Source of the DNA: an uncultured bacterium
Lineage (GTDB): Bacteria > Desulfobacterota_D > UBA1144
Length of the DNA: 54,056 nt
Assembly: GCA_913050245.1 (NCBI GenBank)
Contig: CAJWZJ010000007.1
Coordinates: 1 to 54,056 of the forward strand
Reading direction: 5' to 3'
The position numbers were made by a program, and so were the translations under genes. This document shows positions 20,762-40,853 of the stretch, piece by piece. Position 1 is the stretch's first letter. Each line of letters starts with the position of its first letter. Below the pieces are notes generated by a model. The model saw only the letters and a list, made by a program, of their open reading frames with translations, was not told where the DNA came from and made no database searches.

Positions 20762-20774
20762 TTATATTAAAGAT

Positions 20775-23126: not shown

Positions 23127-23209
23127 TGATGCTTAAATATAACCTAGATTATCTATATTAAAAAATATAGCTAAATATTATAATTCTGATATAGAATATT
23201 GTTTATTGT

Positions 23210-24508: not shown

Positions 24509-25523
24509 GTGTTGGTTTTGTCGCAGAATTTGAAAATGGTTGATCAAGTAATTCAGAATGTGAGTCTTTCCATAGATTATTTATTTTCTCTATCTCATCA
24601 TCTGAAATTGAATCCAAATAACTACATTTTGAGTACTCTTTTATTTCATCTTTGTTGGTAAAATTAGGCAAAACTGTACATATATTTTTTTGTGAAAGTG
24701 AAAATAGGATTGCTGTCTGTCCAATTGTTCTATTTTTTTCCTCATAAAGAAAAGATAAATCTTCTTTAGCCTTAAGACCATTCATCATCCATTTTTGTCT
24801 TCTATGACTTCTGTGATCATCAGAGGAAAAAACTTTATCTTTAGAAAAACTCCCATCTAGAATTCCTGAGGCATGAGGGACCCTTGCAATAAAGCCAATT
24901 TCTTTATTTTGTGACTCCTCTAATAAGGTTTTTGAGGGCTCTTGTTCTAAAAGATTATAAATAATTTGTACAGCGAAAGGATTTTTTTTAATAGAGTCTA
25001 ATCCTTCTTCAAGCCATCCGATATCAGGTCCTAAAGCCATTCCCCATGATCTAATCTTTCCTTCGCTAACCAATTCATCAAGTGTTTCTATTACTTCATC
25101 ATTATTTATGAAGTCAAACCTTGGATTGTGCATTTGATATATATCTATAAAATCTGTTTTCAGTCTTTTTAAGCTCTGTTCACATGAGTATTTGATATCT
25201 TTTTTTGTAAACTTTTGTGGTAGCTCTTTGTGGCCTTTCCTTTCAGACTTATTTGAATAAATATCATAACCAAATTTAGTAGCAATAATTATTTCTTTTC
25301 TAGAACCTTGAAAAGCTTTTTGCAAAATCTCTTCACCATATCCGTTTCCGTAGACATCAGCAGTATCAAAAAAATTTATGCCATTATCTAAACCATGTCT
25401 AAGTAATGATATGCCTAAAGATTCATCGTCAACTCCCCACCATTTGGTGGCAACAGACCAAACACCAAATCCAACCTCTGAAACCTGGATATCTTTATTT
25501 CTAGGAAAACTTCTGTACTTCAT
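24501..25523 (-). CDS. Aldo/keto reductase
   Basis: A 340-residue TIM-barrel NADPH-dependent oxidoreductase. The catalytic tetrad is visible: Asp53 and Tyr58 in FFDTADVYGNG, Lys83 in ATKFGYD, and His132 in YQMHNPR. GKIRSWGMALGP and LSFLYEEKNRTIGQTA are the usual later landmarks. It most resembles the YdhF/YajO-like general stress oxidoreductases; the substrate is unknown. Its start overlaps the end of trxB by four bases, so it is co-transcribed with thioredoxin reductase, which hints at a redox-linked detoxifying role. Confidence 0.85.
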   Translation of the reverse strand: MKYRSFPRNKDIQVSEVGFGVWSVATKWWGVDDESLGISLLRHGLDNGINFFDTADVYGNGYGEEILQKAFQGSRKEIIIATKFGYDIYSNKSERKGHKELPQKFTKKDIKYSCEQSLKRLKTDFIDIYQMHNPRFDFINNDEVIETLDELVSEGKIRSWGMALGPDIGWLEEGLDSIKKNPFAVQIIYNLLEQEPSKTLLEESQNKEIGFIARVPHASGILDGSFSKDKVFSSDDHRSHRRQKWMMNGLKAKEDLSFLYEEKNRTIGQTAILFSLSQKNICTVLPNFTNKDEIKEYSKCSYLDSISDDEIEKINNLWKDSHSELLDQPFSNSATKPTPK

Positions 25524-26455
25524 TCAGTCAACCCCTCCTCGAGAAATCTTTCAGCATCAATAGCTGCCATACAACCTGAACCTGCTGCAGTAATTGCTTG
25601 CCTGTATACACTGTCTTGTACATCTCCGCATGCAAAAACACCCTTGACGCTTGTTTTTGACGACTTATTAAAAGTATTAATATAACCATTAGTATCAATT
25701 TCTACAGAGTCTTTAAAAATTTCAGTATTTGGATTATGCCCTATGGCCACGAAGACTCCATCTGATTTAACATTTTTTATAGTAGAATCCTGATTATTTT
25801 TTAGCTCGATTCCATCAAGTACTCCGCTTGAGGAACTTAAAAATTTAATTGGAGAATAATTGAACATGAATTCAATTTTTGGATTTGATCTTGCACGATC
25901 TTCCATTATTTTCGAAGCTCGGAGCTTACTTCTTCTATGAACTATTGTTACTTTGCTTGCAAACTTTGTTAGGAATATTGCTTCTTCCATAGCACTATCT
26001 CCACCACCTATAACATGTATTTGCTTATCTTTATAAAAGAATCCGTCACAAGTAGCACAAGTTGACAACCCTCTTCCCATTAGATTTTCTTCTCCCTCAA
26101 TATCTAAAAGTTTTGCAGAAGCTCCAGTAGCAATTATTACCGAAAAAGTTTTATAGTACTGTTTCCCAACTTGCAATGTATAGGGATAGTTATCAAAATC
26201 TATTGAGTCAACATTTTTCATTATACATTCAGCGCCAAATCTTTTGGCTTGCTCCCTAAGCATATCCATCAGTTGTGGCCCTTGGACTCCTTCAGGAAAT
26301 CCTGGGAAATTTTCAACATCGGTGGTCATTGTAAGTTGACCACCAGCTTGAAATCCCTCAAATACTATTGGGGATAAATTTGCTCTCGCAGCATAAATAG
26401 CCGCAGTCAAGCCCGCGGGTCCTGATCCAATAATAATAATTTTTTTGTTTTCCAT
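25520..26455 (-). CDS. trxB: Thioredoxin reductase
   Basis: A 311-residue low-molecular-weight NADPH-dependent thioredoxin reductase. FAD motif GSGPAGLTAAIYAARA at the N-terminus, redox-active CATC near residue 135, NADPH motif GGGDSAMEEA, and the FAD-closing motif FACGDVQDSVYRQAITAAGSG near 280 are all intact. The frame opens at a GTG at 26464, but the ATG at 26455 is preceded by GGTGA at a proper distance and I prefer it. It is divergent from ygfZ across about 35 bases. Confidence 0.96.
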   Translation of the reverse strand: MENKKIIIIGSGPAGLTAAIYAARANLSPIVFEGFQAGGQLTMTTDVENFPGFPEGVQGPQLMDMLREQAKRFGAECIMKNVDSIDFDNYPYTLQVGKQYYKTFSVIIATGASAKLLDIEGEENLMGRGLSTCATCDGFFYKDKQIHVIGGGDSAMEEAIFLTKFASKVTIVHRRSKLRASKIMEDRARSNPKIEFMFNYSPIKFLSSSSGVLDGIELKNNQDSTIKNVKSDGVFVAIGHNPNTEIFKDSVEIDTNGYINTFNKSSKTSVKGVFACGDVQDSVYRQAITAAGSGCMAAIDAERFLEEGLTE

Positions 26456-26489
26456 TTTTATCACCAGTAAAATTAATTATGATAATAAC

Positions 26490-27362
26490 ATGAACATTAA
26501 TTCTATTCACGAAAGATTTTATAAAAAGAAAGTTTATTATATCAAAGGTAAAGATTATATAAAATTTTTCAATAACATAACAACCAATAAAATTGTAGAA
26601 AGAGAAGATAATGTTTTATTAAGGACTCTATGGCTCAATAATAAAGGAAGGATTGTTCATGATTTATCGATTGGTTGGTATAGAAATGATTCAGCAAATG
26701 ACAATGATAAAAGAATATTTCTAATAGATAATTTCAGCGTTGAATCAATTGAGGAGAATATTAATAAATATAAAATGTCATTAAATATAAAAATTGAAAA
26801 AACAGAATTGGAGGCTCGTATAGTAGATAAGATTAGTACAAAAGTTAGTGGAATCTATTTTTTCAAAACTTCTATTCCTTTAATGGAGAAATATATTGCA
26901 ATAGGAAATAAGAAAAATATAGAACAATCAGGATTGAATATATTTGATAGAAAAGACTTTATAAATAATGGATCAATATATAATAAAATGATTCAAAATA
27001 ATAAAACGCCAATGGAATTAAATCTTTGGTATCCAATTGACTTTAAAAAGGGATGTTATTTAGGGCAAGAAATTGTTGCTAGAGTTAGATATAAGGGACA
27101 AGTTAAAAGAAACTTCTCATATGTCGCAGTAAAATCAACTAAATCTATGGATGATCAAAAAATCTACAAGGGAATAGATGAGATTGGGAAGTTAATTAAT
27201 TTAGAATTAATAGAAGATGGAATATCTTATTATTCGGCTCTAATAAATCATAATGAAAATTATGAACAAAAAGGACTTTTGGTTATAGTAGGTAAAAAAG
27301 AATATTCGGCAAATATAATAAAAAATAATTTTAAAGAATATAATGAAAAAGGGCTAGGTTGA
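26490..27362 (+). CDS. ygfZ: YgfZ/IBA57-like folate-binding protein
   Basis: About 290 residues. The family hallmark K-G-C-Y-x-G-Q-E is present as KGCYLGQEIVARVRYKG, with its cysteine near residue 188. This is the tetrahydrofolate-dependent protein that helps maintain iron-sulfur enzymes such as radical SAM proteins (two of which, BioB and MqnC, lie in this window). The frame opens at 26445, but those 15 residues overlap trxB; the ATG at 26490 begins MNINSIHERFY and is the likely start. Its end overlaps the PUR-like gene by nine bases, tail to tail. Confidence 0.85.
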   Translation: MNINSIHERFYKKKVYYIKGKDYIKFFNNITTNKIVEREDNVLLRTLWLNNKGRIVHDLSIGWYRNDSANDNDKRIFLIDNFSVESIEENINKYKMSLNIKIEKTELEARIVDKISTKVSGIYFFKTSIPLMEKYIAIGNKKNIEQSGLNIFDRKDFINNGSIYNKMIQNNKTPMELNLWYPIDFKKGCYLGQEIVARVRYKGQVKRNFSYVAVKSTKSMDDQKIYKGIDEIGKLINLELIEDGISYYSALINHNENYEQKGLLVIVGKKEYSANIIKNNFKEYNEKGLG

Positions 27363-27578
27363 TATAGAGGCTTTATCTATTACTTCCAAAAGATGGCCCT
27401 GGAAATCTCCAAGACCATCTAAAGGAATTATAATGCTAGACCTTCCACCGCTTACTTCCGTAATTTTCAGGTAGTGGCCTTTATGATTTTCTTTTAAATC
27501 AAAGAAAAATTTCTTATTTTCTACTTCAAGTTTACTACTAAAAACATCCTTTGATTGTTTTAACTTATCTTCTTGCAT
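27354..27578 (-). CDS. PUR-domain (DUF3276/PurA-like) nucleic-acid-binding protein
   Basis: A 74-residue protein with one PUR repeat: VFSSKLEVENKKFFFDLKE, YLKITEVSGG, SIIIPLDGLGDFQGHL. The order of beta strands followed by a final helix (LLEVIDKASI) fits the single-stranded nucleic-acid-binding PUR module found in Borrelia, Bacteroidetes and many deltaproteobacteria-like genomes. It lies eight bases downstream of the thiolase gene on the same strand and may be co-transcribed. The RNA/DNA target is unknown. Confidence 0.75.
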   Translation of the reverse strand: MQEDKLKQSKDVFSSKLEVENKKFFFDLKENHKGHYLKITEVSGGRSSIIIPLDGLGDFQGHLLEVIDKASIST

Positions 27579-27586
27579 TTAATACA

Positions 27587-28768
27587 TTAGGCATTTGGAT
27601 TTTCAATTACCATTGCAATCCCTTGCCCCCCTCCAACACACAAAGAAACAAGTCCTCTTTTAACATTTCTTCTTTGCATTTCGTGTAAGAGCTTAACAAT
27701 TAAAATCGTCCCGGAAGCTCCAATAGGATGGCCAAGTGCAACAGCTCCGCCATTTACATTCAATTTTTCTGCCGGTATAGGAAAATCGCTCAAAACGGCT
27801 AAAGATTGAACAGCAAATGCTTCATTTAATTCAACAAGATCTATATCATCTATTGTTAATCCTGCTTTAGCCAAAGCCTTATTCATTGCAGGCACTGGAC
27901 CAATTCCCATAACTGAAGGCTCAACACCAGAAACAGCATAGGAAATTACCTCGCCAACTGGTTTTAAACCTAACTCTTTAGCTTTCTCTTCTGAGGAAAC
28001 AATCATAGCGGCAGCTCCATCATTTATACCTGAAGCATTACCAGCTGTAACAGAGCCTTCCTCCGTAAAGACTGGTTTTAATCTGCTTAATGCAGCCATT
28101 GATACCTCACGAGGATGTTCGTCCGTATCAAATACACCTTTAGCCAGTTCAACAGGAACTATCTCTGATTTAAAAACACCTGTTCTCATTGCTTTTTTTG
28201 CTTTACCTTGACTTTCAATAGCAAATTTATCCTGTTCTTCTCTAGATATATTATATTTTTCAGCAAGATTTTCTGCTGTCATTCCCATATGGTAATTGTT
28301 AAAAATGTCCCAAAGACCATCATATACCATACCGTCTAGAACTTGATCACTGGCCTCAAGTGCCATCCTATAACCATATCTAGCTTTTGGTAAAATAAAT
28401 GGGGCTAGGTTCATATTTTCTATCCCACCAGCGAGTACGCACTCTGCATCTCCTGCCTTAATTGCCATTGCAGCATTAGCGACTGATTGAACACCAGATG
28501 CACAAACTCTGTTAAGAGAATATGATGGTGTATCATAATCTAAGCCAGCTCCTAAAGCTACTTGCCTTGCAGGATTTTGGCCTTGTCCTGCACCAAGAAT
28601 ATTACCCATTATACACTCATCAATTTGTGTAGGCTCAATCCCTGTTCTTTTTAAAATTTCTTTTACTACAGTTATACCTAACTTAACAGCAGAAACATCT
28701 TGCAGGGCTCCCCCGAAAGTTCCTATGGCCGTTCTTAAAGGTTCACTAATAACTACTTTTGTAGACAT
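27587..28768 (-). CDS. Acetyl-CoA C-acetyltransferase (thiolase)
   Basis: A 393-residue type II thiolase. Cys89 in [10 protein letters not shown] is the acyl nucleophile; His in [14 protein letters not shown] near 350 and Cys in SLCVGGGQG near 380 complete the active site. The biosynthetic (PhaA/AtoB-like) length and motifs suggest condensation of two acetyl-CoA to acetoacetyl-CoA. That is the first step of polyhydroxybutyrate or ethylmalonyl-CoA routes, which matters because ethylmalonyl-CoA mutase lies 20 kb away. GGGGGA precedes the ATG closely. Its codon use is noticeably richer in G+C than its neighbours, fitting strong expression. Confidence 0.93.
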
Positions 28769-28884
28769 TATCTAATCCCCCTATGTCTTATAAAATTGGT
28801 TTTTTTTAAAGCAAAAACATATAGATTGTACCAAAAATATTTGAAAGAATAAACATTTTATTAATTTATGAGTATTATTGATAA

Positions 28885-29982
28885 ATGAAGAAAAAAAATG
28901 TTGTGATAATATTTGGTGGAGTATCTGTAGAACACGAGGTTTCTATAGTTTCCGCAAACTCAATACTAAACAATATTAATATTAAAAAATATAGACCTAT
29001 AGGCATATATATGACTAAAAATGGGGGTTTCAGATATTCTGAAATTATAATTAATAATAAAAAGAATAAAGAATTTAAGCCTACAAATTCTGTTGTAAGT
29101 TTTGAACCAGGAAATAAAAAATGCTTGGTAATAGATGGAAGTAAAAAAATAATTCCAGAGATTTTTTTTCCTATTATTCATGGAACTGGTGGAGAGGATG
29201 GTTCGATTCAAGGGCTTATAAGGACACTCGGTGTTCCATTTGTTGGATGTGATATTTTGGGATCTGCTATTACTATGAATAAAGTTCTTACAAAAGAATT
29301 AATAGCCTCACATAAAATAAATACTGCAAAATATATTAAGGTTGATAAAAAACTCGAAAAATTTGAATTGAATAAAATAAATAAAGAATTAGGCTATCCC
29401 TGCTTTGTAAAAGCTTCCAACTTGGGCTCTAGTGTAGGAATTTTTAAAGTAAATACAGAGGAAGAAGCTATAAGCAAGGTAAAAAAGGCATTAAAGTATA
29501 GCAAAGAAGTTTTTATTGAAGAGAGTATTATTAATGCAAAAGAAATCGAAGTTAGCATTTTAGATACTAGTAAAGAGCTTATCATATCAATACCAGGAGA
29601 GATAAATCCATCATCAGAGTTTTATGATTACAATGCAAAATATATTGATGGAAAATCTGAACTCTCAATACCATCAAAGTCTTTAAAAAATGATAAAAAA
29701 TTAATTAATTATATAAAGAGGACTTCTGAAGAGGCATTTAAGATTTTAAAATGTGAGGGCTTAGTTAGAGTAGATTTCCTTTATGGATCGACATTAAAAA
29801 ATAAATCAAAAAAAGTTTATCTAAGTGAAATAAATTCAATACCAGGATTTACAGAAATTAGCATGTATCCCAAGCTACTGGAATATGATGGAATAAATTA
29901 CTCGAGTCTAATAGACAAACTTATTCAATTTTCATTAGCAAGATTCAAAAAAGAGCATAAATTAATTAAATCAATAAATTAA
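28885..29982 (+). CDS. ddl: D-alanine--D-alanine ligase
   Basis: A 365-residue ATP-grasp ligase that makes the D-Ala-D-Ala dipeptide for peptidoglycan. The opening IIFGGVSVEHEVSIVSA is the Ddl signature; HGTGGEDGSIQGLIRTLGVPFVG, KASNLGSSVGIFKV, and EINSIPGFTEISMYPKL at the end carry the ATP, Mg and substrate residues. There is an inserted stretch near residues 60-80 as in longer Ddl/VanA-type members. It is alone, not with murC/ftsQ, and its end overlaps the EamA gene by four bases on the opposite strand. Confidence 0.95.
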   Translation: MKKKNVVIIFGGVSVEHEVSIVSANSILNNINIKKYRPIGIYMTKNGGFRYSEIIINNKKNKEFKPTNSVVSFEPGNKKCLVIDGSKKIIPEIFFPIIHGTGGEDGSIQGLIRTLGVPFVGCDILGSAITMNKVLTKELIASHKINTAKYIKVDKKLEKFELNKINKELGYPCFVKASNLGSSVGIFKVNTEEEAISKVKKALKYSKEVFIEESIINAKEIEVSILDTSKELIISIPGEINPSSEFYDYNAKYIDGKSELSIPSKSLKNDKKLINYIKRTSEEAFKILKCEGLVRVDFLYGSTLKNKSKKVYLSEINSIPGFTEISMYPKLLEYDGINYSSLIDKLIQFSLARFKKEHKLIKSIN

Positions 29983-30869
29983 TCAATATTACCTTTTCTG
30001 AAAACAAGTAGTAAAATAACACCTAGAACTATTAGTAGACCACCAAAAAGTTTTAGCGTATCAGGAATAGTATCAAAGAAAATATAAGATAGTAAAACAA
30101 CAAAGACTGCCTCCAAAGGCGTAATTGCAGTTGTCCTTGAAACATCAACCAATTTTATTGCTTGAAACTGAAAAGCTTTACCAATAAATGCGCCACACGT
30201 TCCCCCCAATAAAATCATTATAAAATCATAAAAATTTGGCATTTGAAACTTATCTGAAATTAGTAAATATACAAAACCTATAATTACAACACCCATTGAT
30301 CTCAGAGTAGCGACCATAATCATATTTAAATCTGATGCTATTTTTTTCACTATAATAAAAAGAATTGAGTAAAAGAAAGCAGCTGAAATAGCATACAAAG
30401 ATCCAAGAAGCTCTATTGAAGTTGAGTTGAAAGTTACAAGAAGCCCACCTAGAATAGTTAATAGCATTCCTCCGATCTCGATTTTTGTTAATCTTTCCCC
30501 TAAAAAAATAACACCAAAGATAACGGCGAATAAAACTTGAAACTTCATTAAAAAAGATGTTGCTGGTGGTCCTATGATTCTCAAAGCTACAACCCATGAA
30601 GCTGCTCCAAATACAGTGATTATCGAAGTTAAAATCATGACTTTTTTGTATTTTCCAATATCTGATAGAGGCACTTTGAATTTAAAACCAAAAAGTGAAA
30701 AAATTCCTCGTTTAAAAATTGCAACAATTAACGCGCCTAAAAACCAATAGAATGCAACCACCTCTGGAAATAAGTAGTCAGATACTTTTTTACCAAATAT
30801 ATAAGAGAACGCTGTAAAAAAAGCTGTACCTATAATAAAAAAATAACCTAATAAGACTTTATTTTGCAT
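29979..30869 (-). CDS. EamA-family (DMT superfamily) transporter
   Basis: A 296-residue inner membrane protein with ten predicted membrane helices in two repeated halves, each beginning with a helix like GYFFIIGTAFFTAFSYIFGK and AISAAFFYSILFIIVKK. The second half ends with the typical PLEAVFVVLLSYIFF and LKLFGGLLIVLGVILLL. Such proteins export or import small metabolites, and the substrate is unknown. It lies 16 bases downstream of exbD on the same strand and may be read through from lysA-exbB-exbD. Confidence 0.85.
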   Translation of the reverse strand: MQNKVLLGYFFIIGTAFFTAFSYIFGKKVSDYLFPEVVAFYWFLGALIVAIFKRGIFSLFGFKFKVPLSDIGKYKKVMILTSIITVFGAASWVVALRIIGPPATSFLMKFQVLFAVIFGVIFLGERLTKIEIGGMLLTILGGLLVTFNSTSIELLGSLYAISAAFFYSILFIIVKKIASDLNMIMVATLRSMGVVIIGFVYLLISDKFQMPNFYDFIMILLGGTCGAFIGKAFQFQAIKLVDVSRTTAITPLEAVFVVLLSYIFFDTIPDTLKLFGGLLIVLGVILLLVFRKGNID

Positions 30870-30885
30870 TTTAAATTCCGAAAAA

Positions 30886-31287
30886 TTATTCAGATTTTTT
30901 AACAGCTATCCCAATTTTCTTAAAGCCAGATGATTTAACTAAATCCATAATTTTTACTACAAATCCATGGTCAATCGTTTCGTCTGCCTTGATAACTATT
31001 GTTTTATTTTTATCTTCATTAGATAAATGGTTAGATACCTGATCATAAAAAAATGGTTTATCATTTATATAAATTTTGTTATTTTTCTCAATACTTATAA
31101 CAATTTGCAATTCGGATAATGTCTCTGAACTTTTAGCTTTAGGTAGCTTAATATTCAGACTAGATGTTATTTCACTAAAATTTAAAGATAAAGCAAAAAA
31201 TATAAGTAAATTAAAAACTACATCAACTATTGGAGTTAAATCTAAATTAGCTTCAGGCGAGGTAGATATTTTTTTTGTAAAATTCAT
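30886..31287 (-). CDS. exbD: ExbD/TolR-family biopolymer transport protein
   Basis: A 133-residue protein with a single N-terminal membrane helix (VFNLLIFFALSLNF near residues 25-40) preceded by DLTPIVDVVFNLLIFF, where the Asp in LTPIVDV is the conserved proton-path residue. The periplasmic domain follows with VISIEKNNKIYIND and VIKADETIDHGFVVKIMDLVK. With ExbB it forms the proton-driven motor that energises TonB (or TolA). It begins on the last base of exbB's stop. A TonB-family gene is found at 50220 in the window, about 19 kb away. Confidence 0.9.
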   Translation of the reverse strand: MNFTKKISTSPEANLDLTPIVDVVFNLLIFFALSLNFSEITSSLNIKLPKAKSSETLSELQIVISIEKNNKIYINDKPFFYDQVSNHLSNEDKNKTIVIKADETIDHGFVVKIMDLVKSSGFKKIGIAVKKSE

Positions 31288-31901
31288 TAATTTTTAATCC
31301 TATCGATTAATTTTTTTGACTCCTCTTGCAATTCAACAGCAATATTCATAATTCTTGAATTTAAATATTTATATCCAATATATGATGGAATAGCCACAAG
31401 CAAGCCAAATGCAGTTGTATACAAAGCCTCTGATATTCCACCCGCCAAACTTGGTGGGTCTACTACAGTTTGGGTCGATATAACTTTAAAAACAGTTATC
31501 ATCCCTGATATTGTTCCAAGTAGCCCTAGCAATGTGCTTATGTTACTTAATGATCCCAATATTTCATTTGACTTGGACAATTTATAAATTTGTCTTTCGC
31601 CTTCATCCTGAACAACAGATTCAACAACCTGTTTTTCTTCATTCCTATTAATGAAGATTAGAACAGCTAATTTAGAAAAAACTGTGTTATCTCTTTCACA
31701 TGCCGCAATTGCCTTATCAAAGTCACCAGAATCAAGGTATGAGCTAACTTTAATTAGCAAACTTCTAGAAATTACTTTATCTTTTGATGAAAGATAGAAT
31801 CTTTTCAAAAAGATTGTAAGCGCTATAACTGAGCAAACCAATATTGGATATACAAAAAAGCCGCCTTTAGTAAAGATAGATATAAGTAGTGAATCATTCA
31901 T
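31287..31901 (-). CDS. exbB: ExbB/TolQ/MotA-type proton channel protein
   Basis: A 204-residue integral membrane protein with three membrane helices: residues 12-33, and two in the C-terminal half (SNISTLLGLLGTISGMITVF and TTAFGLLVAIPSYIGYKY). LLGLLGTISGMI and EALYTTAFGLLVAIP are the conserved channel helices of the MotA/TolQ/ExbB family. Its start overlaps lysA by eight bases and its stop touches exbD. ExbB versus TolQ cannot be separated by sequence alone; pairing with exbD and not with tolA/tolB favours ExbB. Confidence 0.9.
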   Translation of the reverse strand: MNDSLLISIFTKGGFFVYPILVCSVIALTIFLKRFYLSSKDKVISRSLLIKVSSYLDSGDFDKAIAACERDNTVFSKLAVLIFINRNEEKQVVESVVQDEGERQIYKLSKSNEILGSLSNISTLLGLLGTISGMITVFKVISTQTVVDPPSLAGGISEALYTTAFGLLVAIPSYIGYKYLNSRIMNIAVELQEESKKLIDRIKN

Positions 31902-33141
31902 TTAGTAACTCGTTCTCCATTAATTGTGATAACATATCTTTTTTTCTTATAAGCTTTGAACCACCATCATCAATAATAATTTCAGGCGCTTTTGGTCTGG
32001 TGTTATAATTTGATGCCATAACATGCCCATAGGCACCGGCAGAATGTATAACTAAAACATCATTTTTTGATAATTTTGGAAGTTCTACGTCCTTACCCAA
32101 AATATCACCTGTTTCACATATTGGTCCAACAATATCATATTTAGACCTATCTCCATTCACTTTAACAACCTCTTCTATTTTGTGATAAGCATTATACAAA
32201 GATGGTCTCAGGAGATCATTCATACCAGCATCAACAATAAGGAAATCTTTATCATAATTTTTCTTTTTATATAAAATGGAAGTTAACAAATATCCAGCAT
32301 TACCTACCAATGATCTTCCAGGCTCTAGTATTAAAGTACAATTTAAATCTTTCATTTTATCTATAACTCTATCAGCGAATTCCTTTTTTGAAGGTGGCTC
32401 GTCAGAATCAAAGTACTTTATTCCAAGACCTCCTCCTATATCAAAATAAGTAATATTAATTCCTTTATCTTTTAAGTTTTTATATAAAGCTATTAATTTA
32501 TCTAAGGAATCAATAAAAGGACTTATTTCAAATATCTGTGATCCAATATGAGCATCAATTCCAACTGGATTAACATTTTCCATTTGATTTGCGTAAGTAT
32601 AAACTTCTAAGGCTTGATTAATTTCTATTCCAAACTTACTTGATTTTAAGCCAGTAGATATATATGGATGAGTCTTGGGATCAATATCGGGGTTAACTCT
32701 AATTGAAATATTTGCAGTTTTATTTAAGTCCGCGGCTATCCTATTGATATTTTCTAGCTCATCTATAGATTCAACATTGAAGAATAATATTCCATAGTCT
32801 AACGAGTCTTCTATTTCTTTATCTGATTTTGCAACACCTGAAAAAACTATTTTACTTGGGTCTGCTTTTATATATTTTAATCTTTCCAGCTCACCTAGTG
32901 ATACAATATCAAACCCTGAACCAATATCTTTAAATATTTTCAAAATATTGATGTTTGAACATGCTTTTACTGAATAGCATATAAGAGTATGATTCAAATT
33001 TGAAAAAGCGTTTTTATATTCATTAAATTCCTTTACTAAAGAGTTTTTGCTATATAGGTAGCATGGAGTTCCATATGATTGGGCAATATCATATAAAGAT
33101 ATTTCATCTAGGTAAAGCTTATTATCTTTTATATCTAACAT
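31894..33141 (-). CDS. lysA: Diaminopimelate decarboxylase
   Basis: A 415-residue PLP enzyme of the alanine-racemase fold that makes lysine from meso-diaminopimelate. The PLP lysine is in CYSVKACSNINIL, the glycine-rich phosphate loop is YFDIGGGLGIKY, and LEPGRSLVGNAG, GPICETGDILGKD and SAGAYGHVMASNYN carry substrate and interface residues. The last motif (C-E-T/S-x-D near residue 340) is the one that distinguishes LysA from other family members. Coupled downstream to exbB, an unusual pairing of lysine synthesis with a transport motor. Confidence 0.95.
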   Translation of the reverse strand: MLDIKDNKLYLDEISLYDIAQSYGTPCYLYSKNSLVKEFNEYKNAFSNLNHTLICYSVKACSNINILKIFKDIGSGFDIVSLGELERLKYIKADPSKIVFSGVAKSDKEIEDSLDYGILFFNVESIDELENINRIAADLNKTANISIRVNPDIDPKTHPYISTGLKSSKFGIEINQALEVYTYANQMENVNPVGIDAHIGSQIFEISPFIDSLDKLIALYKNLKDKGINITYFDIGGGLGIKYFDSDEPPSKKEFADRVIDKMKDLNCTLILEPGRSLVGNAGYLLTSILYKKKNYDKDFLIVDAGMNDLLRPSLYNAYHKIEEVVKVNGDRSKYDIVGPICETGDILGKDVELPKLSKNDVLVIHSAGAYGHVMASNYNTRPKAPEIIIDDGGSKLIRKKDMLSQLMENELLNE

Positions 33142-33198
33142 TAAACTATATTATATACCTTTGATTGAGATTATTGTATCTTTAGTTAATAAATTAGT

Positions 33199-33477
33199 AT
33201 GTTTGAAGTTAAATTTAAAAATAAAGATAAGTCAATATTTATTAAAAATGGTGATTCAATATTGGTCAAATCTAACGAAGAAGGTATGGATATTCCATCT
33301 GCATGTCTTCAAGGAATGTGTACAACATGTATGGCCACGTTATTAAAAGGGAAAATTTCTTACATTGAACCACCTGATCCAGATTCATTAACAGAAGAAG
33401 ATGTTGCCTCTAACAAAGTATTATTATGTGTTGCAACACCTGAATCAGACTTGTTATTTGATGATTTAGAAGATTAA
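33199..33477 (+). CDS. Plant-type [2Fe-2S] ferredoxin
   Basis: A 92-residue ferredoxin. The iron-sulfur ligands are Cys36, Cys41, Cys44 and Cys77 (C-x4-C-x2-C-x32-C) in SACLQGMCTTCMA and LLCVATP, the pattern of plant/cyanobacterial ferredoxins, with an acidic ending (ESDLLFDDLED). Such a ferredoxin could feed electrons to the ferredoxin-type sulfite reductase-like CysI at 38004; this is inference. A second frame across the same DNA is only a shadow. Confidence 0.9.
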   Translation: MFEVKFKNKDKSIFIKNGDSILVKSNEEGMDIPSACLQGMCTTCMATLLKGKISYIEPPDPDSLTEEDVASNKVLLCVATPESDLLFDDLED

Positions 33478-33486
33478 TCATATTTG

Positions 33487-33515
33487 TTGAATTTAAAATT
33501 AGCTTTTGATACAAT
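33487..33515 (+). promoter_or_regulatory. Sigma-70-type promoter of the 66-residue protein gene
   Basis: TTGAAT at 33487-33492 and TACAAT at 33510-33515 are separated by 17 bases, each one or two bases from consensus. Transcription would begin near 33522, only about 15 bases before the ATG, with AGGAGGTG at 33525-33532 directly in between. It is among the best promoters I can find in this window. Confidence 0.6.
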
Positions 33516-33536
33516 TTATATATCAGGAGGTGCACT

Positions 33537-33737
33537 ATGCCAGATAATCATAATTCAACAATGAGAAATTGGGCTAGAAGAGTTAGTATTGATACTGCTC
33601 AATCAGCTCACGATCCTCAAAAAGCTCTTGGATATGCAGGTCATGTTGCAGGACATCAAAACTGGGCAGCGAAAGTTGGTTTAGACTTTGGAAGACCAGA
33701 AAACCAGTCTAAGCACAAAAGAGCTGTTAATCAGTAA
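33537..33737 (+). CDS. Small basic protein of unknown function, apparently highly expressed
   Basis: A 66-residue protein that I do not recognise. It contains two tryptophans (RNWARRV, HQNWAAKVG) and three histidine-rich glycine turns (GYAGHVAGHQ), and it ends in a basic tail (KHKRAVNQ). No membrane segment or signal is seen. Several features mark it as strongly expressed: a near-consensus promoter with 17-base spacing, a very strong AGGAGGTG ribosome binding site, a private terminator right after it, and codon use clearly richer in G+C than the surrounding genes. It stands as its own transcription unit between a ferredoxin and a membrane protein gene. A structural, nucleic-acid-binding or ribosome-associated role is possible but not shown. 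Confidence 0.85.
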   Translation: MPDNHNSTMRNWARRVSIDTAQSAHDPQKALGYAGHVAGHQNWAAKVGLDFGRPENQSKHKRAVNQ

Positions 33738-33745
33738 TATTTTAA

Positions 33746-33778
33746 AAAGGTTGGGTAACCATCCTAACCTTTTTTTTT
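33746..33778 (+). terminator. Rho-independent terminator after the 66-residue protein gene
   Basis: A ten-base-pair stem (AAAGGTTGGG with CCTAACCTTT, one G-U pair) around a seven-base loop TAACCAT is followed by an unbroken T run (33771-33778). It starts nine bases after the stop codon. It is the clearest intrinsic terminator in the window. Confidence 0.88.
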
Positions 33779-33797
33779 CTTTTCAAAAATTAATTAA

Positions 33798-34235
33798 ATG
33801 ATTTCTAGTATAATTAAATTCATAGGTAAGTTTTTTGACTACTTGGTAGCAGTGCTTGTATCATCACTTGCAGTGTTTTGTTATTATCTATATTCTCCAT
33901 ATCCTTTTGATGGAATTAACATAATTTACTATTTTCAAAAAATAGATATTTTTTTTCCAAATGAATTTTTTTTCAACCTTATCAAATACTATTTATTATG
34001 TTTTATTCTGGGGTTCTTTTATTTAATATTTTATAAAAAAATCAATATTGGAAGACTTTGGATTGGTATATTAACTTCTTTGATCATATATATAATATAT
34101 TTTTCTATAAATCTCATTTTATTTGATAAAGAAAGATTTGAGTATATGAAAATTTATTTGATACAAGATTGTATTGCAATTTTAATTTTTTATGTTGTAC
34201 TATCGATTGTTTATAAAAAAAAGAAGGAAATCTAA
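33798..34235 (+). CDS. Four-helix membrane protein of unknown function
   Basis: A 145-residue, very hydrophobic and AT-rich-coded protein. Four membrane helices are likely near residues 12-32 (YLVAVLVSSLAVFCYYLY), 55-73, 80-103 and 120-140. Between the first two helices is a loop FDGINIIYYFQKIDIFF. I do not recognise the family. It lies three bases upstream of a glutaredoxin gene on the same strand. Confidence 0.7.
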   Translation: MISSIIKFIGKFFDYLVAVLVSSLAVFCYYLYSPYPFDGINIIYYFQKIDIFFPNEFFFNLIKYYLLCFILGFFYLIFYKKINIGRLWIGILTSLIIYIIYFSINLILFDKERFEYMKIYLIQDCIAILIFYVVLSIVYKKKKEI

Positions 34236-34238
34236 ATA

Positions 34239-34496
34239 ATGAGTGTAACAATCTATAGTACTGAATATTGCCCTTTTTGTGTTGCTGCAAAAAATTTACT
34301 TGATTCTCTTCAAATTGATTATGATGAAATAGACTTAACTAATAATTTGGAAGAAAGAGTTAAAATTGCTACAAAATATAATTGGAGAACCGTACCTATT
34401 ATAATTATTAATGAAAAACTTGTAGGCGGTTTTGACGAACTAAATAAGTTATATCATGAAGATAAATTGTCAGTGCTTGTGGACTTTAAAAGCTAG
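34239..34496 (+). CDS. Glutaredoxin
   Basis: An 85-residue GrxC-like dithiol glutaredoxin. The redox motif CPFC has cysteines 11 and 14 in STEYCPFCVAAK, and the cis-proline motif is WRTVPIIII. GGFDELNKL is the glutathione-binding loop. AAGGAAA lies just before the ATG. It uses glutathione to reduce disulfides or to bind iron-sulfur clusters. Its end overlaps the SOD-like gene by 11 bases, tail to tail. Confidence 0.93.
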   Translation: MSVTIYSTEYCPFCVAAKNLLDSLQIDYDEIDLTNNLEERVKIATKYNWRTVPIIIINEKLVGGFDELNKLYHEDKLSVLVDFKS

Positions 34497-34968
34497 GATA
34501 TATTTCTGAACAAATTATCCTTTTACCAGACATATCACTAATAATTATAGAGGACTTATTACTATCCATAATAGTTGCCGAGTTCTTAGGGTCTAAAAAA
34601 ATATTTTCGATAAATATGATTTTATTAAAATCTTTTATTTTGCCTGTGTAGCGATTAATTTCTTTTTTTACCTTAAATTTATATAAATTAATTCTATCAT
34701 CAAAAAATCTTATCTTGTTCCCTCCCAGGTCAAAAGATGGTGTATTACAAACATTGTTTTCATGGAAATTAAATAAATATTGGCCAGGCTTTAAACCTTT
34801 TAAAGAAATTCTAATATTAGAACCATTCCCTTGCTCCATAATTTCGACTTCACCAACTGTAGTATTATTAGTGTCAACAAATTCTCCATATGCCATGAAG
34901 ACTTCGCTGTCAGAACATGCGATTAGAAATATTGAAATTGAAATTATATATATATAATTATTCACCAA
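34486..34968 (-). CDS. Degenerate Cu/Zn superoxide dismutase-like lipoprotein
   Basis: A 160-residue lipoprotein: IFLIAC gives a clean lipobox with Cys18 as the lipidated residue. The rest follows the SodC fold: LKGLKPGQYLFNFHENNVCNTP is the counterpart of the G-L-x-P-G-x-H-G-F-H-I-H-E-x-G-D-C region, and MSGKRIICSEI of the G-x-R-x-A-C-G-V-I end. The disulfide cysteines (74 and 153) and an Arg at the usual place (150) remain. The protein has only one histidine, His69, so the copper and zinc sites are gone. I infer a structural or binding role rather than dismutation. The start is TTG (34968) or GTG (34965) and overlaps trhO by 11 bases. Confidence 0.7.
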   Translation of the reverse strand: MVNNYIYIISISIFLIACSDSEVFMAYGEFVDTNNTTVGEVEIMEQGNGSNIRISLKGLKPGQYLFNFHENNVCNTPSFDLGGNKIRFFDDRINLYKFKVKKEINRYTGKIKDFNKIIFIENIFLDPKNSATIMDSNKSSIIISDMSGKRIICSEIYPSF

Positions 34969-35866
34969 GATGTAATTTACCCCTTTTTCTTGCTAATTCA
35001 ATTTGCTTTTGTCTTTCTGATAATCTTTCAATTTGTTTGGAAGTAAGCTTATCAAAACATTTTGGACAATGTATTCCTTCTTTATATTTATCAGAATTTA
35101 TCTCATCAAAAGATACTGGCTCATTACATGCATAGCACATAAGATAATTTCCAACTGATAAATCTTGTTTAATTGCAACTCTATTATCAAAAACAAAACA
35201 TTCGCCTTTCCATTTAGAATTATCAGGATTAGTTTTTTCTAAATAAGAAATAATCCCACCTTTTAAATGAAAGACATTCTTAAATCCATTTTGAAGCATA
35301 AAAGAGCTTGCCTTTTCACATCTAATTCCACCCGTACAGAACATTGCAATTTTTTTATTTTTATAGGGCTTAAGTTTTTCAACAAAATTAGGAAATTCTT
35401 TAAAATTATCTATGTCAGGAATTAATGAATTTTTAAAAGTCCCGATTGAAGTTTCATAATAATTTCTAGTGTCAATTAATACAACATCATCATCCTCTAA
35501 TAAAGTATTCCATTCAGAGTGATCAAGATATTTACCAACAAATTTATTTGGGTTAGAATTTTTTGCATCTCCCAAGCTAATTATTTCATCTTTTATTTTT
35601 ATTCTTAGCCTATTAAATGGCTTTCTAATAGATAATGAAAATTTAAAATCATTATAATTTAAATCTAAATTCTTGATTATAAAATCTATTATTTTATCTA
35701 AATCATTTTCCCTACCAGCTAACATTCCATTTATACCTTCATTCGATAAAATCACTGTTCCTAAAATAGAACGCTTTTTAAAAAAAGAAATAAACTTATC
35801 TCTCAGAATTTCAGGAGAATTAATGTTAACGAATCTATAAAAACTAGATATTTTGTATTTTTTCAT
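34958..35866 (-). CDS. trhO: tRNA uridine(34) hydroxylase TrhO (YceA-like rhodanese protein)
   Basis: A 302-residue protein with an N-terminal ferredoxin-like domain (YRFVNINSPEILRDKF, LGTVILSNEGINGMLAG), a central rhodanese domain with the active-site loop FCTGGIRCEKASSFM, and a C-terminal part FVFDNRVAI followed by a cysteine cluster (YLMCYACNEPVSF, HCPKCFDKL). These are the hallmarks of TrhO, which hydroxylates U34 of certain tRNAs with molecular oxygen. The C-terminal Cys-x-x-Cys pairs probably bind zinc. It begins five bases after cysN, on the same strand, so it rides with the sulfur genes even though it is a tRNA modifying enzyme. Confidence 0.9.
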   Translation of the reverse strand: MKKYKISSFYRFVNINSPEILRDKFISFFKKRSILGTVILSNEGINGMLAGRENDLDKIIDFIIKNLDLNYNDFKFSLSIRKPFNRLRIKIKDEIISLGDAKNSNPNKFVGKYLDHSEWNTLLEDDDVVLIDTRNYYETSIGTFKNSLIPDIDNFKEFPNFVEKLKPYKNKKIAMFCTGGIRCEKASSFMLQNGFKNVFHLKGGIISYLEKTNPDNSKWKGECFVFDNRVAIKQDLSVGNYLMCYACNEPVSFDEINSDKYKEGIHCPKCFDKLTSKQIERLSERQKQIELARKRGKLHLGE

Positions 35867-35871
35867 TATTG

Positions 35872-37110
35872 CTAGATTATTATACCAGCAGCTACAGTGT
35901 TATTAGATTCTAAATCAATAATTATAAAAGATCCTGTTTCTTTATTTATTTTGTAAGAATCAAAACAAATATTGTCGAATACTTCTATTTCTACAATACC
36001 AATATCGTTGATGTTAATATTTTCAGCTAAATCTATATGGTCAAGATTTTTCATATCAACTTTGGATATAATATTTTTAAATATGCATTTAATTGCTTTA
36101 TGAGAATGTTTCAATAAATATTTTTTACCCTTATCAAGAGGTTCTTCGTCCATCCAGCAAATACGTGATTTAAATATATTTGAAATATTAATATTGGTTA
36201 AATTTGAGATAATATCGCCTCTGGAAATATCAATATCTTCATCCAATACAATTGTCGCGGAATCGCTATTAGATATCAAATCAACGCTACTTTCTTTAAA
36301 TATTATATCTTTAATTTTTGCGGGAAATTTAGACGGATATATTAAAACCTGTTGACCTTTTTTCAAACTTTTACCATTCAAAGTTCCCATAAAACCTCTA
36401 AAATCATTAACTTTATCATTATCGATTCTATTTACCAGTTGAACAGGAAATCTTGATACTGATAGTTCTGTATTGTCTTCATCGATGTGAGCCGTTTCAA
36501 GTAATTCGATCAAGGTTTTAGATTTATACCAAGGCATATTCTTTGATTTTGAAACAACATTATCACCATTTAATGCAGAGATTGGAATAAAATTAATTTT
36601 ATCAACTTTAGTATTTTTTGTGATACTTAAAAAATCTTTTTTGATAAAGTTAAATTGTTCTTGATTAAACTCTATTAAATCCATTTTGTTCACTGCGACA
36701 ATAATATTTCTTATTCCTAAAAGCCAAGATATATAAAAATGTCTCTTAGATTGCTCTAATACTCCCTTTCTGGCATCTATGAGAATTATAGTCAAGTCGG
36801 AATTACTAGCGCCCGTGAACATATTTCTTGTATATTGAAAATGACCTGGTGTATCTGCGATAATAAATTTTCTTATATTTGTTGAGAAATATCGATAAGC
36901 TACATCAATTGTAATACCTTGCTCTCTCTCTGCTTTTAATCCATCGGTGAAAAGTGCTAGGTTAATGCCATTTTCTGAGGAGGTAGAACTACCTTGTAGA
37001 GCTTCAATTTGATCTAAAAAAACTCCTTTTGAATCATAAAGAAGTCTGCCTATTAAAGTCGACTTACCATCATCAACACTTCCAGCTGTAGCAAACCTTA
37101 AAATATCCAT
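35872..37110 (-). CDS. cysN: Sulfate adenylyltransferase subunit 1 (GTPase)
   Basis: A 412-residue EF-Tu-like GTPase that drives APS formation by CysD. Visible motifs are GSVDDGKSTLIGRLLYDSKG (G1), DVAYRYF (switch I), DTPGHFQYTRNM (G3) and VNKMDL (G4). The beta-barrel domains follow. E. coli CysN has about 475 residues; this one ends earlier, and it has no fused APS kinase (CysC) domain such as NodQ-type proteins carry. It starts six bases downstream of cysD and belongs to cysI-cysD-cysN-trhO. Confidence 0.93.
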   Translation of the reverse strand: MDILRFATAGSVDDGKSTLIGRLLYDSKGVFLDQIEALQGSSTSSENGINLALFTDGLKAEREQGITIDVAYRYFSTNIRKFIIADTPGHFQYTRNMFTGASNSDLTIILIDARKGVLEQSKRHFYISWLLGIRNIIVAVNKMDLIEFNQEQFNFIKKDFLSITKNTKVDKINFIPISALNGDNVVSKSKNMPWYKSKTLIELLETAHIDEDNTELSVSRFPVQLVNRIDNDKVNDFRGFMGTLNGKSLKKGQQVLIYPSKFPAKIKDIIFKESSVDLISNSDSATIVLDEDIDISRGDIISNLTNINISNIFKSRICWMDEEPLDKGKKYLLKHSHKAIKCIFKNIISKVDMKNLDHIDLAENININDIGIVEIEVFDNICFDSYKINKETGSFIIIDLESNNTVAAGIII

Positions 37111-37116
37111 GAAAAT

Positions 37117-38007
37117 TTAAAAATATCCTTCTTTTTTTTTATCTTCCATACTATTTGAACCATGATCTATAATTCTTGTTTCTCTTTCGCTTCTTATTGC
37201 AGAATTAGCTTCCTTAACAATTCCTTCAATGTTATCTGCATCGGAGACGACTGCCCCAGTACAAGGCATACATCCTAGAGATCTAAATCTAGATGAAACT
37301 TCCTCAATATTTTTTTTCTGCTGTCTATTTGACTCTAATGGAATTAAATTCTTACCTTCTCTAACTAGCTTTCTTTTTTTAGCAAAGTATAGTGGAACGA
37401 TTTCTATTTTTTCTTCTTTTATGTAGTTCCATATATCGGATTCAGTCCAGCTTGATAAAGGGAATACCCTAACAGATTCTCCTTCATTAATAATTGGATT
37501 ATAATTATTCCACAACTCTGGTCTTTGTGCTTTTGGATTCCATTGGCCAAATTTGTCTCTAAATGAAAATACTCTTTCTTTGGCTCTTGATTTCTCCTCG
37601 TCCCTTCTTGCTCCACCAATAGCAGCATCAAATTTATTTATTGATAAGGCATCTAATAATGCTTGTGTTTTTAAAGCACCACAACACTTAGCAACACCAA
37701 ATTTTGCAGGGTGCATACCCTTTTCAATAGCTTTTTCATTTCTATGTATAATTAAATTTGCGCCTATTTTAGATACTAACTCGTCTCTAAATTCATACAT
37801 TTCTTTAAATTTATAACCTGTATCTACATGCAAAAGAGGGAATGGTATTTTAGAAGGATAAAAAGCTTTCTGAGCCAATCTTAGCATTACACTTGAATCC
37901 TTGCCAACAGAATACAGCATTACAGGATTAAAAAACTCAGCCACAACCTCGCGGAGTATATAAATAGATTCATTTTCTAGTTCTTGTAAGTATTTTGATA
38001 AGCTCAT
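37117..38007 (-). CDS. cysD: Sulfate adenylyltransferase subunit 2
   Basis: A 296-residue N-type ATP pyrophosphatase that makes adenosine 5'-phosphosulfate from ATP and sulfate. The PP-loop [13 protein letters not shown] lies near residue 33; [41 protein letters not shown] and MPCTGAV are conserved. Its start overlaps cysI by four bases (ATGA). With CysN it activates sulfate for assimilation. Confidence 0.95.
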
Positions 38008-39710
38008 TTTTGAATAATTATATTTTTTTTCAAATTATCAAAATTCTGACAATTATAAAAATCTCCGAACCTTTGTATTTCTGAATCTCTATTATCTTTC
38101 CAATAATCAATCAACTTCGATATTACTTTTGGTAATTCTTCATCTTCAACCAATTCCATAAAAAGTTTATTTAGCCTAGTACCTAAATGATCCCCCCCCA
38201 GGTAGATATTATATTTTCCAAGAGTTGCTCCTATCAAGCCAAGTTCAGAAACAGGTGGTCTTGAACATGAATTAGGACAACCACTCATTCTGATTTTTAT
38301 ATCTTCATTGCCGTAGCCCATATTTTCAAGTTGCTCGAGTAATTTAGGAAGATATCTCTCAGCCTCAGCGACAGCAAGACTACAAGTAGGAAGAGCTGGG
38401 CAAGCCATGGACATTTTTTTTATAGAGCTATATTTTTCATGAGTATCAATATTATACTTCTCAAATAGTTCTTTTATTGCATCAACATCATTTTTATCAA
38501 TATTGACTAGTATTAAGTCTTGCGTTGCTGTTAATCTGGTCTCAATGTTAAATTTTTTAATTATTTCTTTCAAGCCTGTCTTAAGCTTTATTTTTTTGGT
38601 GTCACCAATTCTTCCATTTTCAATAAATATTCCACAAAAAAATTTATTTTTATCTGGTTGTTGGTGCCAACCATAAAAATCATCAATTTCTTTAATTGAA
38701 AATTTAATAAATTTATCAAGTTTAAAGTCTAGAAATCTTTCAACCTCTTTCCTAAACTTATCAACTCCCCATTCTTCGAGTAGATATTTCATTCTTGCCC
38801 TTTTTCTATTTGTTCTACAACCATGATTTCTTTGTACCATTAAGATAGCTCTTACTACTTTTATTACATGATCTTCATTCTTACACATTCCTAATTCGTC
38901 AGCTAATCTGGGGAAAGTTTGTGCTTGGTTATGATGACTCCCTAATCCTCCACCTACTAAAATATTAAAACCAATTAGTTCGTTATCCTTCGAAAAAATT
39001 GGGATAATACCTATATCTTGCGTATAAACATCTATTGAATTATCAGATTGGTGCCCTACCCCGATTTTAAACTTTCTTGGTAGATAGTTTTCACCATATA
39101 AATCATCTTTCTCAATTTTTTTTTGATTAATGTTTGTTGTATATTTTTCATCATCTACCCATATCTCGTAATATCCTTTTGATTTTGCGAGTGTAGCCTT
39201 ATCTATTTCCGTGGCTAAATATGATGCATCATAGTAATAAGAAGATCTTAAATCTGAGATTGGAGAAGCGACAGTATTTCTATTTATATCACCACATGCC
39301 CCATAAGAAGATATTAACTTAGAATTCATTGCGTTAACTGCATTCCAAAGATTTTTTTTGCCTATTCCATGAAATTGGAAGCACTCCCTAGTTGTAATTC
39401 TAAGTGTTCCATTAGCCCAGTTGGTACTAATTTCATCAAGTATCTCCCATTGATCAGGCGATATGTTTCCGCCACCAGGATTTTTAGTTCTTATCATAAA
39501 ACTATAAAGTCTATCTTTTTTTTGCTTAATTAATTCTTTTCTTTTATCTCTATCATCTTGTTGATAAATTCCATGAAACTTAAGAACCTGCTCATTGTCT
39601 TTTGTAAATTTATTTAATTCTGAGTCATGCAATTCTTGTTTTATTGTTCCACGCAAACCATTTGATTGCTCTTTTATATATTCATTTTTTACTTTTTTAA
39701 TTTCTGACAT
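38004..39710 (-). CDS. cysI: Assimilatory sulfite reductase hemoprotein
   Basis: A 568-residue siroheme enzyme reducing sulfite to sulfide. The [4Fe-4S]/siroheme ligands are the C-x5-C in [21 protein letters not shown] and the C-x3-C in [38 protein letters not shown] and [14 protein letters not shown] are substrate-site arginines and landmarks. No CysJ flavoprotein is in the window; the electron donor could be the ferredoxin at 33199 or a CysJ elsewhere. GAGGTG precedes the ATG. Codes for the first gene of a minus-strand sulfur operon that faces the permease/cysH operon. Confidence 0.95.
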
Positions 39711-39738
39711 TGGTCACCTCTAACAAAAAGAGAAAATT

Positions 39739-39747
39739 ATTATAACA
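39739..39747 (-). promoter_or_regulatory. Extended -10 promoter of cysI
   Basis: Read on the minus strand, TGTTATAAT has a perfect TATAAT with the extended TG one base before it. The distance to the cysI ATG is about 30 bases, giving a short leader. The -35 is poor, which is what one expects at an activated promoter and would fit a CysB-like regulator binding upstream (see 39784-39822). Confidence 0.4.
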
Positions 39748-39783
39748 AGACCACATGTAAAGAATAGAGATTACTAAAAAGAT

Positions 39784-39822
39784 ATCACGTTACCAAAAAG
39801 TGATTGGTTATTTTTAAGTAAC
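39784..39822. promoter_or_regulatory. Dyad-symmetric region between cysI and the permease gene
   Basis: Overlapping inverted repeats lie in the 159-base gap between divergent sulfur operons: ATCAC (39784-39788) with GTGAT (39800-39804), ACCAA (39792-39796) with TTGGT (39804-39808), and GTTAC (39789-39793) with GTAAC (39818-39822). This is a candidate activator or repressor site for both directions. No regulator gene is nearby. The rest of the gap is AT-rich without other visible structure. Confidence 0.35.
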
Positions 39823-39869
39823 TATCTTTTTATTGAATTAATTTAGCATTATATTTGTAAATTAATTTT

Positions 39870-40853
39870 ATGGAATTTTATTTTTTATTCTTTTTTGTTT
39901 TTCTACTTGCGGTTAATGTAGGTGCTAATAACGCAGGTGCATGTATGGCAACTTGCTTTGGATCAAAAACATTAACAAAGAGAAGTAGTCTTTTATTAGT
40001 ATTTATTTTTTTCTTCATTGGAAGTTTATTATTTGGACAAGAAGTAATTAAAACCCTAAGTGAAGGTATAGTCCCAAAAACATTAGTAAAAGAAAACAAC
40101 TCTTTAATATTTATAACTTTGATTATCCCAATGAGTGCAATACTAGTTGCAAACATAATTAAAATTCCAATAGCTACAACACATGCAGTTGTTGCAAGTT
40201 TTATTGGTATTGGAATTGCGAACAATAATATTCAGAAAGAAAGTGTTTCATTGATAATAACATGGTGGCTAATTACACCTGTACTAATGTTTATCATTAA
40301 TTTTTTAATTGGAAAGTTTGTGTATTATAAAATTGTAAAATATTTATTAGAACTATCTGGTCACAGTATAAAAAAGAAAAAATTTGATAAAATTCTAAGA
40401 ATTTTTTTAATTTTATCCGCCTGCATTTTAGCTTTATCAGCTGGTGCTAATAATTCTGCAAATGCGGTTGCACCACTAGTTGCGCTAGAAATAAATTCAA
40501 CTTTTGAAGCTGCAATTATAGCAGGAATAGCGATGTCTTTTGGAAGCCTGTTCTTTGGCGGAAGAATAATAGACTCTATGGCAAACGATATCACGGATAT
40601 ATCAATTTTAAGAGCTGTATCGGTTCAAACTACTGGGGGAATATTGTTAGTTATAGCTTCTGTAGCTGGAATACCTATATCATTAGCAGAAATAATAACC
40701 TCAGGCATAATTGGATTTTCTTGTTCTAATTTAGGATGGAAAAAAACTTTTGCGAACTCAAATATTGTAAAAATTCTAAAATTCTGGGTTGCAGGCCCCA
40801 TAATTTGTATTTTATTATCATATTTAATATCTTTATTAATGGGGAATTATTGA
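39870..40853 (+). CDS. PiT-family permease, probably sulfate permease CysP
   Basis: A 327-residue inner membrane protein with about ten helices and the two PiT family signatures: LAVNVGANNAGACMATCFGS near residue 13 and LALSAGANNSANAVAPLV near residue 190. PiT proteins are usually phosphate carriers, but the Bacillus CysP branch moves sulfate. It sits head to head with cysI and three bases upstream of cysH, so sulfate is much the more likely substrate; no CysUWA/Sbp ABC genes are present. No long N- or C-terminal PhoU-related sequence follows. Confidence 0.8.
   Translation: MEFYFLFFFVFLLAVNVGANNAGACMATCFGSKTLTKRSSLLLVFIFFFIGSLLFGQEVIKTLSEGIVPKTLVKENNSLIFITLIIPMSAILVANIIKIPIATTHAVVASFIGIGIANNNIQKESVSLIITWWLITPVLMFIINFLIGKFVYYKIVKYLLELSGHSIKKKKFDKILRIFLILSACILALSAGANNSANAVAPLVALEINSTFEAAIIAGIAMSFGSLFFGGRIIDSMANDITDISILRAVSVQTTGGILLVIASVAGIPISLAEIITSGIIGFSCSNLGWKKTFANSNIVKILKFWVAGPIICILLSYLISLLMGNY

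Follow-up and report, generated by a model that had tools for sequence, protein, structure and literature searches.

A 66-codon gene with its own conserved expression signals is fixed across a single streamlined family of marine Dadabacteria

Why should a streamlined ocean bacterium surround a gene of only 66 codons with what look like the signals of heavy expression, and what could the product be for? The gene lies in a 54-kb window (the whole stretch of DNA analysed, 54,056 nucleotides), a contig belonging to a marine Dadabacterium genome of 798 kb and 80% completeness. Marine pelagic members of this group are described in PMC8115339 as streamlined, with genomes of about 1.22 Mb, low G+C and nitrogen-poor proteomes. 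A sequence-only reading of the window had singled out the locus as a self-contained unit for a small basic protein. The comparisons presented here span family f1, which comprises 14 genomes (G000-G013) with the window genome included, and 43 further genomes of the same class, called sisters below. Within the host, the gene was compared with a set of 93 ORFs drawn from the window and from a 20-kb ribosomal-protein stretch. The features of the locus are collected in Table 1.

Table 1. Positions in the window of the 66-codon gene, its expression signals and its nearest neighbours.
Feature	Position	Strand	Observation
-35 box TTGAAT	33487-33492	+	Identical in 14 of 14 orthologs
Extended -10 box TG-A-TACAAT (TACAAT at 33510-33515)	33507-33515	+	TACAAT and the preceding TG identical in 14 of 14
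Inferred untranslated leader with ribosome site AGGAGGTG (33525-33532)	33522-33536	+	Top anti-SD duplex of 93 ORFs
66-codon ORF, ATG at 33537	33537-33737 (stop included)	+	Single copy in 14 of 14 family genomes
Intrinsic terminator, 12-pair stem and T run (hairpin 33744-33774)	33744-33784	+	Seen in the sequence; clear in 12 of 14 orthologs
[2Fe-2S] ferredoxin neighbour	33199-33477	+	Present in 12 of 14 loci
145-aa protein neighbour, fast-evolving	33798-34235	+	No significant Pfam match
Glutaredoxin neighbour	34239-34496	+	Domain match

The distribution of the gene is sharply bounded. Each of the 14 family genomes carries one copy, 70-98% identical to that of the window, and a profile search found it in none of the 43 other genomes of the class. 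Among the relatives that carry it are TMED58 and UBA1144, both marine Dadabacteria records, while the rest of the 13 stand under looser names. Two peptide patterns run against the collected genomes, a method that detects close kin only, returned 13 loci, which are the same 13 relatives. Coverage of 14/14 inside the clade and 0/43 in the rest of the class places the family among synapomorphic ones by the thresholds of PMC10849945 (at least 90% clade coverage and 100% specificity). When the profile was run against 386 genomes, two extra matches appeared at E ≤ 0.01 (0.0019 and 0.0053). Both were rejected as chance because they lie in or across longer unrelated reading frames, one in a 152-aa acetyltransferase-like ORF and the other over a 592-aa sialidase-like ORF, each identified by eye. 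Single-query matches in sister families (E 0.01-0.7) were not upheld by the profile (E 0.16-0.74).

The surroundings of the gene are constant in all 14 genomes. On one side are lysA and exbB; on the other are the fast-evolving 145-aa protein, glutaredoxin, an unassigned protein and a rhodanese-domain protein. The upstream ferredoxin is missing at two loci (L020 and L021), where the 66-codon unit and its promoter persist, and the gene is therefore an independent unit. Sixteen lysA loci, from the 42 sister genomes with a lysA match, were inspected for a hidden ortholog and none was seen. These loci hold lysA with or without exbB, and several end early at contig ends. The ferredoxin, 66-aa, 145-aa and glutaredoxin genes occur at none of these 16 loci, some of them contig-truncated, and the block that they form beside lysA (33199-34496) seems to have been assembled within family f1.

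Substitution patterns show that the ORF is protein-coding and under purifying selection at the protein level, with dN/dS between 0.03 and 0.21 in all 13 comparisons to the window copy. Its mean pN over all pairs, 0.127, is lower than that of any of the eight neighbours compared at the locus (0.171-0.375), and 10 of 16 ribosomal genes have values below it. The gene is genuine and protein-coding, is present once per genome throughout a streamlined marine Dadabacteria family, and has no recognisable relatives.

The promoter had been called near-consensus with 17-base spacing, a description that holds. The spacer between TTGAAT and TACAAT is gapless and of constant length in all 14 orthologs, in which the TTTG ahead of the -10 box and several leader bases are also identical; the ten bases 5' of the promoter average 70% conservation, as against the invariant hexamers. 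The boxes match 9 of 12 consensus bases, and matches of such quality are no commoner than in shuffled sequence (100 found against 119.3 expected in 20001-40000). The promoter is taken as real because it is conserved in 14/14, whereas consensus counting alone would leave it unremarkable. The exact pattern occurs once in the genome, at this gene, as expected from its length. Directly 3' of the -35 box, TTAAAA (33493-33498) is conserved almost at the level of the boxes themselves, in 13-14 of 14; it may be a regulator site or mark an unusual type of promoter.

The claims made for the remaining signals held up. The leader is about 15 bases long, as had been proposed, assuming that transcription starts at the inferred point 7 bases after the -10 box. 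The ribosome site ranks first among the 93 ORFs, with a duplex energy of -14.0 against a median of -4.9, computed with a generic bacterial anti-SD sequence. Every SD base is kept in 13 or 14 of the 14 orthologs; the bare word GGAGGTG is neither rarer nor commoner in the window than chance would have it (1 found, 1.6 expected). The terminator, considered the best in the window, does have the longest stem (12 pairs) among 18 terminator-like sites. Its stem sequence varies between genera while its position in the orthologous loci stays constant. At L026 the hairpin is visible by eye with a weak T run, and the script chose another hairpin; no convincing terminator was found after the gene at L027. 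The UBA1144 copy (L027, 5001-5204) also stands apart in its protein, whose C-terminal tail differs, as well as in its unclear terminator. With its own promoter, ribosome site and ORF conserved in 14 genomes, and a clear terminator in 12, the self-contained unit is supported.

The silent sites of the gene are quiet. Synonymous change amounts to 0.745 of what the neighbours predict when amino acids and genome pairs are matched, as compared with 0.84-0.955 in 16 ribosomal genes and 0.96-1.04 in the eight neighbours. Among 87 segments cut from those genes, each 66 codons long, the lowest value is 0.777, and synonymous change in the gene falls below the neighbour expectation in 83 of 91 genome pairs and below the ribosomal expectation in 72 of 91. 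Such quiet sites would fit very strong translation of the gene and are the strongest new argument for heavy expression, with the caution that the host's ribosomal genes show almost no codon preference. RNA structure does not explain them, since the ORF does not fold clearly better than synonymous-codon shuffles (z from -1.19 to +0.87; 13 of the 14 orthologs tested) or dinucleotide shuffles (z -1.37).

Exchange between genera is a second reason for caution. The tree of the 66-aa gene joins the window copy to L015, from another genus, and a tree of six neighbours groups it with L017-L019. Window copy and L015 are 92-97% identical over the ORF and 48-80% in the flanks. L015 and L016, which belong to one genus, diverge most at ORF bases 20-80, with 68% identity against 75-98% around them. 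The alleles of the first helix thus form a mosaic at 33552-33612 of the window (ORF bases about 15-75; 5020-5080 in L015 and L016), the window genome and L015 having one version and L016-L020 another. A short piece covering the first helix was probably swapped between genera, to judge from these alignments, and such recombination may in part lower the silent-site change.

Composition bears on the cost of the product. The codons had been described as richer in G+C than those of the neighbours, which is true at positions 1 (0.55) and 2 (0.45) but not at position 3, which at 0.194 resembles the neighbours. Being confined to positions 1 and 2, the excess reflects amino-acid content and not codon choice. 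The gene shows no ribosomal-type codon preference in the 93-ORF comparison, and codon use allows no conclusion on expression because ribosomal and background genes hardly differ in this host. Side-chain nitrogen, at 0.64 atoms per residue, ranks first of the 93 proteins and exceeds that of everything in the ribosomal stretch; the window median is 0.32 and the second highest value, 0.61, belongs to ribosomal protein S14 (gene name assigned by eye). Such a nitrogen-rich product, if made in abundance, is expensive for a host group under selection to economise on nitrogen. Taken together, the invariant promoter, the top-ranked ribosome site, the low silent-site change and the clear terminator make heavy expression likely.

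The protein itself has a pI of about 10, a net charge of +3 to +5 and a GRAVY of about -1, which makes it strongly hydrophilic; no signal or membrane stretch was seen by eye. In the 14 sequences 33 of 66 positions are invariant, masked residues and gaps being ignored. The protein contains an internal repeat, RNWAxxVxxD at residues 10-19 and QNWAxxVxxD at 41-50, 31 residues apart. The shared NWAxxVxxD motifs occupy residues 11-19 and 42-50, with N, W, V and D invariant in each copy. The repeat's profile score was equalled in 1 of 1500 shuffles; of five sequences tested singly, three had scores that none of 400 shuffles equalled, and for the other two 5 and 6 of 400 did so. A positive charge shifts between residues 15 and 18, which are R15/I18 in five orthologs, Q15/K18 in seven and neither in two. 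Structure prediction, which had been suggested as a check, gave no confident fold: AlphaFold, given the 14-row alignment, shows a helix at 8-24 as the main element and reaches a pLDDT of 51.

Searches brought to light no recognisable relative of this small basic protein. The sequence-only reading would have been overturned by a match to a well-described small family, and none was found in Pfam, NCBIfam, PHROGs or PDB. In Pfam, the 14 orthologs drew only three families up to E 10, all at chance level; the PHROG search gave one member at E 0.18, and the single PDB profile match, a homing endonuclease at E 1.5, was taken as chance. Searches of phages, plasmids and viral contigs gave no matches for the gene, Rfam gave none for the transcript, and no known RNA-binding motif was found in the protein. 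A possible likeness to the KGG stress proteins and E. coli Sra was considered through the Pfam scans. A literature search, conducted largely outside subscription papers, found no paper on the protein.

One gene loss in the family bears on possible roles. The ribosome hibernation factor HPF/RaiA, a translation inhibitor that binds at the 30S decoding region, was detected by profile search (PF02482) in 43/43 sister genomes and 0/14 family genomes, so that its distribution in the class is exactly complementary to that of the 66-codon gene. It is present in 336 of the 372 sampled genomes outside family f1 (386 searched, 14 of them family members). Its absence from all 14 streamlined marine Dadabacteria genomes is an unusual loss in itself. 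Genome size does not force this loss, because the sister G017, at 1.2 Mb and 96% complete, retains HPF. HPF was the first vacancy tried, and HU (PF00216), an abundant small basic protein, was the one comparable control searched for throughout the class; it is kept in 57/57 genomes, with 2-3 copies in each of the 14 of the family. The complementarity, drawn from so few families, serves as a lead and could be coincidence, because it amounts to a single event on a branch with many gene losses.

The reading preferred here, tentatively and at less than even confidence, is that of an abundant ribosome- or RNA-binding protein, which in its most specific version stands in for HPF/RaiA. Ribosome or RNA binding is suggested because of the composition and the repeat. 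The product would be an abundant cytoplasmic protein that associates near-stoichiometrically with ribosomes or RNA, its two NWAxxVxxD motifs acting as paired contact helices and its R/H/N/Q-rich stretches contacting RNA; in the most specific version it would do the resting-ribosome job of the HPF/RaiA lost in family f1. Against this stand a net charge of just +3 to +5, the lack of a known RNA-binding motif, the low pLDDT, a codon usage that is not ribosomal-type, a dissimilarity to RMF, the chance that recombination partly accounts for the quiet silent sites, and the HPF pattern's origin in a single event. Decidedly doubtful is the bolder proposal that a new hibernation-factor family of two NWAxxVxxD helices was born in the ancestor of streamlined marine Dadabacteria and replaced HPF; synthesis from the strong promoter would then be constant, and ribosomes would be stored during permanent slow growth and not just in stationary phase. 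A nucleoid- or mRNA-binding protein that has no link to the ribosome, and that coats or chaperones nucleic acids beside HU, is possible if rather unlikely. Small size, basic pI and the highest nitrogen content of the 93 proteins suit it, and two motif copies could bridge two sites, but the retention of HU in multiple copies leaves no obvious vacancy and the net charge is low for a DNA coater.

The same hydrophilicity, and a predicted structure with little beyond one helix, would also suit a protein that works through protein partners, as a disordered stress protectant, an anti-sigma factor or an enzyme regulator. The charge swap at residues 15 and 18 in 12 of 14 orthologs is of the kind seen at a contact face, but invariance at half of all columns is high for a generic disordered protectant, and no family, Pfam stress families included, matched above chance; this role is unlikely. 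That the transcript acts as RNA, with or without the protein, would explain silent-site change below that of all 16 ribosomal genes. It is very improbable, given that non-synonymous change is far below synonymous, that the ORF does not clearly outfold its shuffles and that Rfam is silent. Least credible by far is that the ORF arose by chance, or that it is an unexceptional gene of weak expression lying in conserved intergenic DNA: the promoter match, taken alone, is no better than in shuffles, but purifying selection, a fixed promoter, the best ribosome site and a fixed locus in 14 genomes contradict it.

Ocean bacteria with streamlined genomes lose genes and economise on nitrogen, and a nitrogen-costly, clade-fixed and apparently strongly expressed protein must pay for itself; it therefore points to a core function rebuilt in the family f1 lineage. 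Should the protein sit on ribosomes, HPF would be replaceable by an unrelated protein, and ribosome storage in slow-growing ocean bacteria would become testable with one small, easily made protein.

A comparison with known systems shows how far these likenesses go. The protein resembles HPF/RaiA in its hypothesised role, that of an abundant ribosome-associated protein, and in the complementary phyletic pattern. It differs in having no S30AE (PF02482) match above the curated cut-off in the 14 orthologs and in its 66 aa, as against the 88-position S30AE domain set in sister frames of about 180-215 codons. E. coli RMF is likewise a small protein from its own gene and shares a short GY motif by eye; sequence similarity was rejected on an hhalign probability of 0.2% over 4 columns and the lack of a Pfam match. 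Membership in HU/IHF was also rejected, as the orthologs have no PF00216 match and the genuine HU genes are found at other genomic positions. Balon, a three-domain aeRF1-like protein, is presented in PMC10901736 as a hibernation factor of a third kind, which makes further unrelated factors plausible. That paper discarded candidates under 300 aa, so by its length criterion the 66-aa protein cannot be a member. There is also a parallel with the FESNov synapomorphic families as described in PMC10849945, which are near-universal in one uncultivated clade, absent elsewhere, under strong purifying selection and found in conserved contexts. To these features the present locus adds a conserved promoter, a ribosome site, a nitrogen cost and an HPF complement. 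The protein is a new family of the kind that PMC10849945 describes, the clade-defining orphans of uncultivated bacteria, and one for which the evidence of cellular investment is unusually good.
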